Shown one piece after another: positions 53,776-60,113 of a stretch of DNA of 64,000 nt. Below the pieces are notes generated by a model that was not told where the DNA came from, did not search any database, and saw only the letters and a list, made by a program, of their open reading frames with translations. Origin of the DNA: Gemmatimonadaceae bacterium (GTDB lineage: Bacteria; Gemmatimonadota; Gemmatimonadetes; Gemmatimonadales; Gemmatimonadaceae); assembly GCA_036273715.1 (NCBI GenBank), contig DASUHB010000062.1, positions 62,001-126,000 on the forward strand, read 5' to 3'. The position numbers were made by a program, and so were the translations under genes. Every line of letters begins with the position of its first letter. Position 1 is the stretch's first letter.

Positions 53776-53850
53776 CCTGGGACGCCCTGGGGTTTGAGCG
53801 GAAATGATTTGATGATGGCGCCGAGCGCGGTCGAGCCATCGTGTGGCGGC

Positions 53851-54861
53851 ATGACGCCTCCTCGCATTCCAGATTCGCAGCTCAGCGCGGCGCCCGATTC
53901 GGCGCGTCGCTTTCGATTCATGGAGATGGTGCGGCGCAGGATGCGCGAGCGCCGATACAGTCCGCGGACGGAGGCAGCATACTGCCACTGGATCGTGGCG
54001 TACATCCGCTTTCACGGCCGACGACATCCCCGAGAGCTGAGCGCCGAATGCGTGCGTCAGTTTCTCTCGCACCTTGCCGTCGAGCAGCGCGTGGCGGCCA
54101 GCACACAGAACCAGGCGTTGGCTGCCTTGGTCTTCCTGTACGAGGCCGTGCTGCACACACCGCTGCCGCGCGTCGACGGAATCACGCCTGCGCGCCGAAC
54201 ACGGTTCCTGCCGGTGGTGCTTTCACCGAGAGAAGTGAAGCTTATCCTGCGCCGTCTCCATGGCGACGCGCAACTTTGCGCATTGCTGATGTACGGCAGC
54301 GGTCTGCGTCTAACCGAATGTGTCTCTTTGCGGGTGAAGGACATCGATCTCGATCGCGGCGAGATCGTGGTTCGTCAGGGAAAGGGAAGGAAGGATCGGC
54401 GCACGCCGCTGGCGGAAGTGACTCGACCGCTTCTCGCGCGGCGTCTTCGAGACGGATTGGGAGTGTTCCGGCGTGACCGGAAAGCCGGTGTCAAAGTGGA
54501 CGGGGTGAGCGTCTCGTACCTGCGAAAGGATCCGAACGCGGACGCGTCGTGGAGCTGGTGGTACGCGTTCCCGGCGACGCGGACGTTTGTTGACTCAGAC
54601 GGAGCCCGTCGTCGTCATCATCTCCATCCCACCGTCGTGCAGCGAGCGTTCAAGCGGGCCGTGAACGAGCTCGGCCTGGTCAAGCGTGCGACGTGCCACA
54701 GCCTTCGTCACTCGTTCGCGACGCATCTACTCGAGTCGGGTTCGGATATCCGCACGGTGCAGAAGTTGCTCGGCCACGCGAGTGTGCAGATGACGATGCG
54801 GTACACGCACGTGCTGAATCGCGGTGGACTTGGCGTTCGGAGCCCCGCCGATCGCCTCTAG
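53851..54861 (+). CDS. intI: Integron integrase (tyrosine recombinase)
   Basis: The 336 aa length matches class 1 IntI. All catalytic residues are visible: Arg153 (GSGLRLTE), His283 and Arg286 (HSLRHSFATHL), His309 (LLGHASV) and Tyr318 (RYTHVL). The IntI-specific extra segment between Arg153 and His283 is present (WSWWYAFPATR ... RRRHHLHPTVVQRAFKRAV), which separates it from phage or XerC-type recombinases. The ending GGLGVRSPADRL is also IntI-like. ATG 53851 is chosen for length; in-frame ATGs at 53812/53815 exist and no strong ribosome-binding site is seen. It points toward the cassette array, the unusual orientation. Confidence 0.95.
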   Translation: MTPPRIPDSQLSAAPDSARRFRFMEMVRRRMRERRYSPRTEAAYCHWIVAYIRFHGRRHPRELSAECVRQFLSHLAVEQRVAASTQNQALAALVFLYEAVLHTPLPRVDGITPARRTRFLPVVLSPREVKLILRRLHGDAQLCALLMYGSGLRLTECVSLRVKDIDLDRGEIVVRQGKGRKDRRTPLAEVTRPLLARRLRDGLGVFRRDRKAGVKVDGVSVSYLRKDPNADASWSWWYAFPATRTFVDSDGARRRHHLHPTVVQRAFKRAVNELGLVKRATCHSLRHSFATHLLESGSDIRTVQKLLGHASVQMTMRYTHVLNRGGLGVRSPADRL

Positions 54862-59641: not shown

Positions 59642-59794
59642 ACGGACGTGAAAGAGTTTGGCTCGACCACGATCGTCTCGGGCCCATCGTGGACTGGACA
59701 CGGGTTTACCGAGCCCAAAGCGCACTCGTTCTGGCTCCAGTTCTGTTGTCTTTCTCGCATTCGGGATTCCTTTGCAGCAGAGCCGGAGCGTTAG
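59639..59794 (+). CDS. Cassette gene 7: 51 aa protein, unknown
   Basis: ATG 59639 is 7 bases after GGAAGG. The peptide (MTDVKEFGSTTIVSGPSW ... FWLQFCCLSRIRDSFAAEPER) has no known motif. The frame is open upstream to 59573. Its stop TAG is inside GTTAGCC (59791-59797), the right end of an attC-like hairpin. Coding is plausible from the ribosome-binding site and position, but it could be a remnant. Confidence 0.4.
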   Translation: MTDVKEFGSTTIVSGPSWTGHGFTEPKAHSFWLQFCCLSRIRDSFAAEPER

Positions 59795-59797
59795 CCA
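59734..59797 (+). repeat. attC-like hairpin with altered core
   Basis: Bases 59734-59748 pair with 59776-59790 over 15 positions with one mismatch and three G-T pairs; GTTAGCC follows at once (59791-59797). No inverse core precedes the left arm. It lies inside the end of the 51 aa frame. Confidence 0.5.
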
Positions 59798-59841
59798 GAC
59801 AATTGTTGCGCCTCGGTTTCATGTACTATTGAGATGCCGCG

Positions 59842-59940
59842 ACGTGGTTGTCCCGAGGAAGGCCGGCGCAGTGGGTTCGATTCCCACGCACGTTATTGGG
59901 CGCCGGAACCTTGGCCGGGTTCGAGTCCCGGGCGGCCTTT
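59842..59940 (+). other. Tandem tRNA T-arm-like hairpins in a small cassette
   Basis: Two copies of a T-arm pattern lie 45 bases apart: GTGGG-TTCGATT-CCCAC near 59872-59888 and CCGGG-TTCGAGT-CCCGG at 59916-59932. Each is followed by seven bases that could be an acceptor 3' strand and then TTGG-like ends. GACGTGG (59842-59848) can pair with GCACGTT after the first copy. No D-arm or anticodon arm is complete, so neither is a standard tRNA. A TTG-start frame (59848-60048, ending in the attC) runs through it, but its protein looks like a by-product apart from the last 29 codons. Confidence 0.45.
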
Positions 59941-60044
59941 GGACGGATCAGCAGGGCTATGTTCCAATTCCTCGATGCGGTCCAGAGGAGCGACCTAGAC
60001 GGCGAAAACGATCCCGTCCGCCGCCGCCTGGCAAACGGAAGTTA

Positions 60045-60113
60045 TTGAACAGCTTGGAGCTGCGCCGCAAACGACAATGAGATGTCCTTGCAGCTCGACT
60101 CTGGCGTTAGGCG
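60045..60113 (+). repeat. Short attC site (69 bp)
   Basis: Inverse core ATTGAAC (60045-60051; the fourth base breaks RYYYAAC) and core GTTAGGC (60107-60113). GAGCTGC pairs with GCAGCTC. The length is like that of class 1 integron cassettes. Confidence 0.7.

Follow-up and report, generated by a model that had tools for sequence, protein, structure and literature searches.

A tRNA-like RNA with two T-arms in an integron cassette of a Gemmatimonadaceae bacterium, and its relatives in the phylum

The window analysed here, i.e., the whole stretch of 64,000 nucleotides, carries within an integron cassette an element of ~106 nt that almost certainly specifies a structured, conserved tRNA-like RNA. 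Its predicted fold is cloverleaf-like and four-way, with an acceptor stem, a D-arm-like hairpin and a T-arm, and in the place of an anticodon arm it has a long arm that bears a second T-arm. That this is a noncoding RNA which imitates tRNA and acts as a decoy or scaffold is the explanation we prefer, and to that reading as a whole we give about an even chance. The features in the window are these:

53794 to 54861, forward strand: integron integrase gene intI (TIGR02249, 375.6 bits against a cut-off of 265)
59790 to 60112, forward strand: integron cassette, with core sites GTTAGCC (59790-59796) and GTTAGGC (60106-60112)
59824 to 59829, forward strand: -10-like box TACTAT, ten bases before the acceptor
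59834 to 59939, forward strand: the whole putative double-T-arm tRNA-like RNA, from the acceptor to the position-73 equivalent, defined by covariance matches and compensatory changes
59834 to 59840, forward strand: 5' strand of the acceptor stem, ATGCCGC, pairing with 59932-59938 with one T/C mismatch
59841 to 59852, forward strand: D-arm-like hairpin GACG-TGGT-TGTC from the fold, with GG in its loop
59855 to 59912, forward strand: long arm replacing the anticodon arm, made of GAGG/CCTT, an internal loop, CCGGCGC/GCGCCGG and the second T-arm
59871 to 59887, forward strand: inner (second) T-arm, GTGGG-TTCGATT-CCCAC
59888 to 59899, forward strand: variable loop, 10-14 nt across members and ending in GG in 20 of 22
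59915 to 59931, forward strand: outer T-arm, CCGGG-TTCGAGT-CCCGG
59932 to 59938, forward strand: 3' strand of the acceptor stem, GCGGCCT, with no CCA encoded after it

A preliminary description had placed two T-loop hairpins with perfect 5-bp stems here, and both are present where it put them. They are the sole matches to GGTTCGANTCC in the 64 kb, for which 0.20 are expected, and two matches anywhere arose in 2 of 100 shuffles. No other perfect 5-bp T-arm exists on either strand of the window; an order-1 Markov sequence modelled on it holds 0.12 per strand, and in none of 300 such runs did two T-arms fall within 80 nt of each other. The folding energy of the element is by itself unexceptional (z of -0.09 and -1.17), and the evidence for it is comparative, drawn from aligned sequences, not from folding energy. 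ARAGORN called no tRNA in the window, and there Rfam yielded nothing at gathering scores and only sub-threshold matches at E<=10. The overlapping ORFs (66 and 140 aa) are not convincing as proteins, in agreement with the earlier judgement of the cassette, and a shared reading frame is argued against because the lengths of the relatives differ.

The same description had read an acceptor-like strand after each T-arm and had held that no full cloverleaf could be drawn. The first of these statements is right for the outer T-arm, whose following strand pairs with 59834-59840, and wrong for the inner one, which is followed by 12 variable, unpaired bases. The second had to be abandoned, since a cloverleaf-like four-way structure appears once 59834-59841 are included; it had been missed because the element begins eight bases upstream of the segment then described. 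The D-stem is short and is the weakest helix, with 77.8% of its cells paired in an alignment of 22 rows. The long arm runs out through GAGG-AAGG-CCGGCGC-A to the inner T-arm at its tip and, beyond the variable loop, returns through GCGCCGG-AA-CCTT.

Searched at the DNA level, 60 related genomes yielded one close relative (84% identity), the alignment being confined to the structured part, and an exact-pattern scan of contigs found that relative, which bears the title Gemmatimonadetes, and a second contig under the title Microbacteriaceae. The first covariance model, built from these two and the window, matched in 18 of 395 genomes of the phylum, of which 13 were kept; a second, of 14 sequences, matched 19 of 394 genomes of the class, and a third, of 20 sequences, 11 of 179 genomes of the window's family, the three genome sets overlapping. 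In all, 22 members were kept, 21 of them within the window's phylum. Every carrier genome has exactly one match and the distribution is patchy. The members L198 and L199 were found, at 83.8 and 75.9 bits, by a model from which both had been absent. The remaining member (L010) is on the Microbacteriaceae-titled contig, which is probably mis-binned because its genome is the sole match among 198 genomes of that genome's phylum (at E<=1e-4, 0 of the 197 others), a result which also implies that false positives at that threshold are rare. L024 was retained although its outer T-stem is imperfect and its inner part may pair differently. A blastn search against plasmids and phages returned nothing. 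Matches in G229, G054, G038, G390 and G221 (26.6-30.3 bits) were dropped as members, two of them overlapping ARAGORN tRNA calls, and an ARAGORN call of a 98-nt tRNA-Asp that overlaps the element in L018, shifted 35 nt upstream, was taken as spurious.

The alignment of the 22 members carries the case for the RNA. In it, 93.0% of cells pair, and both-sided changes are seen in 25 of 31 base pairs and in all six helices, including 7 of 7 pairs of the acceptor stem and 11 of 11 in the two long-arm helices (3 and 4). The covariation score of 0.657 was attained by none of 500 shuffled alignments, which give 0.218, and slid versions yield no more than 0.166. Because the structure guided the alignment, the pair counts favour the fold, but the margin is still large. 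Pairwise identity among the first 20 members averages 58%, with a minimum of 42%, and TTCRANY in both T-loops, like GG in the D-loop, is found in 22 of 22. Conservation of the stems in relatives had been named in the preliminary description as a test, which the element has passed, and its suggestion of a tRNA mimic gains support from the compensatory changes in all six helices and from a -10-like box in 9 of 20 members. Its companion suggestion, that two tandem tRNA genes have decayed here, has in its favour the two consensus T-arms close together, the tRNA gene called 14-15 nt upstream of the element in L024, and the viral contigs that often show a full tRNA and then a lone T-arm. It is nevertheless barely credible, given that both-sided changes in every helix keep the pairing at identities down to 42%, that both T-loops are intact in every member and that the box is there in 9 of 20. 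Judged from this alignment, the element is neither a product of chance nor a decayed tRNA pair.

The box itself, TANNNT starting at -16 to -9 before the acceptor, occurs in those 9 of 20 members versus 19 of 658 background bins (2.9%), its position having been chosen after inspection of the data and the box being missing in 11 of the 20. A consensus full-promoter scan of the window found none. A tRNA gene lies closely upstream of two members, L024 and, at 56 nt, L046, and these neighbouring genes may supply their transcript. The element is probably a noncoding RNA that is transcribed on its own.

Core sites on both sides and a nearby integron integrase, 5 kb upstream of the element, identify its setting as an integron cassette. 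The direction of intI is that of the cassettes it precedes, and an integrase gene co-directional with its cassettes is the less usual orientation. At its end the window's cassette is similar (76% identity) to a site elsewhere in the genome, on contig G000:C26. A simple attC scan reported one site (strict) or two (relaxed) in the window's array, the cassette's own end not among them, and is insensitive, as judged by its single site in this array and none in L036. Four of the 22 members lie in integron or integron-like cassettes (the window, L010, L041 in genome G036 and L036 in genome G097), so that the description of a cassette-borne structured RNA is supported, with its 22 members and their compensatory changes, and so that homologues in other arrays, which it had proposed to look for, have been found. 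The RNA in L010 comes directly after a core site. In G036 it shares one cassette with an ARAGORN tRNA-Arg call, in an array of eight to nine attC-like repeats whose integron integrase is split over reading frames; this related cassette is relevant to the tentative remark in the preliminary description that tRNA genes occur in some integron cassettes. It lies at ~2340-2760 of L041 (G036:C80, reverse strand), and its tRNA-Arg call (TCG) has unusual anticodon and variable arms. In G097 the RNA sits between attC-like repeats, beside a tyrosine recombinase. The array there (L036, 7387-11203) consists of attC-like direct repeats and the recombinase has 443 aa, TIGR02249 matching it only in two separate parts and below the cut-off; this may be an integron-like system that lacks the usual IntI insert. 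Another genome, G289, has several strong matches to integron integrases, spread over different contigs, which points to more than one integron in it.

At 16 other loci there were no flanking repeats and, by the simple and insensitive attC scan, no array, its single hits in L040 and L193 being far from the RNA; for L198 and L199, which are outside these 16, just the flanks were viewed. Neighbouring genes differ between members, even among three genomes of one genus, and because the flanking genes differ the RNA looks to be trans-acting. The contrary idea of a cis-acting integron element, i.e., a recombination site or the leader of the next gene, takes its appeal from the RNA's place in a cassette and from the T-arm ends of tRNA genes, which are known integration sites. 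It is scarcely plausible, however, when 16 of 22 members showed no cassette array, when the neighbours differ, and when selection acts on RNA-type pairs, G-U included. In some lineages the RNA looks to be mobile by integrons.

The tidy acceptor, T-arm and D-arm geometry raises the question of a functional, if unusual, tRNA or tmRNA-like RNA carrying an amino acid into the ribosome. In its favour, too, an encoded CCA follows position 73 in 0 of 22 members and is likewise lacking from the tRNA genes that neighbour L024 and L046. However, the 5-bp anticodon arm and 7-nt anticodon loop of tRNA are replaced by a long helix of two parts with a T-loop at its tip, and the acceptor sequence and position 73 vary among members. 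The 3-70-equivalent acceptor pair is G-U in only 2 of 22, which, with the variable position 73, argues against charging by one synthetase, and no Rfam tmRNA match exceeded the threshold. As acceptor identity is unconserved, we regard charging as very unlikely. The tRNA-like domain of tmRNA has an acceptor, a D-loop, a T-arm and a long helix in the place of the anticodon arm, and in all of these the element is like it; unlike tmRNA, the element is ~106 nt long, has a second T-arm and mostly lacks the equivalent of the G3-U70 alanine identity, while the Rfam tmRNA matches are sub-threshold and T-arm-sized. Allo-tRNAs, which together with irregular soil tRNA polycistrons go back to Mukai et al. 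2017 as cited in a passage of PMC7609411, are described there as having an anticodon and 8/4 or 9/3 acceptor/T stems, whereas the element has 7 acceptor and 5 T-stem pairs and no anticodon arm.

Similar in length is the bacterial Y RNA YrlA, whose tRNA-like domain and basal stem link Ro60/Rsr with an exoribonuclease, and the element might be a member or an analogue of that group. In the relevant part of PMC8394870, YrlA is described as an RNA of 90-150 nt with a stem formed by its 5' and 3' ends and a tRNA-like domain of D, T and acceptor parts, and as a substrate of DusA and TruB; a passage of PMC7790460 gives the suggestion that this domain inhibits an anticodon nuclease by competition. The element, too, is probably noncoding, with D-, T- and acceptor-like parts. 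Unlike YrlA, it has two T-arms, and it has no basal end stem apart from the tRNA-like domain, its 5' and 3' ends themselves forming the acceptor stem beside the T-arm. No Rfam match is over threshold, and a TROVE (Ro60) match was found in none of the 13 carrier genomes tested, with the positive control matching in Deinobacterium; as no TROVE protein turned up in these carriers, a Y RNA proper is unlikely, and the broader reading of a Y RNA member or analogue is highly improbable.

The best Rfam match of the element, mascRNA-menRNA (RF01684), is also tRNA-like (22.3 bits versus a gathering score of 42.5) and, unlike the element, is a product of animal long noncoding RNAs. A precedent for a noncoding RNA in a cassette is sRNA-Xcc1 of Xanthomonas integrons; the passages on it in PMC12444791 and PMC6557892 describe no tRNA-like structure. 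No report of this RNA was found in open-licence papers on integrons, tRNA cassettes, tRNA-like RNAs and Y RNAs. There are known examples both of tRNA-like RNAs and of small RNAs borne on cassettes, but no description of this architecture was found in those papers, and the element would appear to found a new RNA family.

A decoy or scaffold is more likely than an adaptor, since the anticodon arm is missing and the acceptor sequence and position 73 are unconserved; the analogy with YrlA leads to the same proposal. The acceptor/elbow/T-arm shape of tRNA is recognised by the enzymes that read those parts. As in tRNA, the D-loop GG would dock with the outer T-loop; a similar contact may form between the inner T-loop and the GG at the end of the variable loop, to give two elbows. 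In addition, tRNA processing enzymes could trim the RNA and add CCA. Acting in trans, the RNA would then occupy a protein that recognises the tRNA elbow or T-arm, e.g., a tRNA nuclease or a processing or modification enzyme. That part of the reading, a decoy or scaffold for a T-arm- or elbow-binding partner, is put forward tentatively, at somewhat less than an even chance. Its single copy per genome, its patchy distribution and its occasional place in a cassette suggest that its role is accessory and depends on conditions, e.g., protection in tRNA-targeting conflicts. A guide or scaffold of another kind, in which the variable loop pairs with targets and the tRNA-like parts serve stability and protein binding, would account for a loop of highly variable sequence but nearly constant length (12 unpaired nt in the window, 12 nt in 13 of 22 members), but the variability of the loop may be neutral and we think this quite unlikely.

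The element is of wider relevance because RNAs that mimic tRNA, among them tmRNA and the Y RNAs, show which tRNA features proteins recognise. An RNA in which the elbow and acceptor are kept, the anticodon discarded and the T-arm duplicated amounts to a natural experiment on T-arm recognition. ORF-less integron cassettes are largely unexplained, and the known cargo of integrons gains a structured RNA, plus a tRNA gene in one relative. With a defined 106-nt sequence and a covariance model, the questions of T-arm recognition and of integron cargo become testable.

Two T-arms 22-45 nt apart were also seen in at least 120 IMG/VR viral contigs (L050-L169; e.g., L052 5266-5313 and L054 1626-1677), many of these loci being a full tRNA and then a lone T-arm. 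When the second model was run on 100 of them, 70 matches were obtained at E<=0.01, with 42.4 bits as the highest score; these were not counted as members because the loci had been chosen for two T-arms and many are ordinary tRNAs or their parts. A scan of viral contigs for the conserved-core pattern gave two contigs with the same stretch and one T-arm, rejected by the model. An extension of the decoy reading, unlikely as it stands, is that mobile 'double-elbow' tRNA decoys have spread in Gemmatimonadota, partly as integron cassettes, and absorb or recruit tRNA-targeting enzymes (toxins, phage or anti-phage nucleases), with the viral two-T-arm layouts as convergent players. Five of the viral contigs (L050, L055, L056, L074 and L142) have two tandem units of a D-arm-like hairpin and a T-arm, the hairpins of which are predicted by RNAalifold; no tRNA was called in the three scanned (L050, L056 and L074) and INPHARED had no match for L050. 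In 26 viral contigs (L097, L098, L115, L130, L131, L148 and L170-L189) a T-arm is followed by CTCGYTGRCCGAG, often with GGTGAA and a second T-arm. Rfam gave no match at this motif in the five contigs scanned, and its one match in INPHARED, unannotated, is in Pseudomonas phage Touem01.
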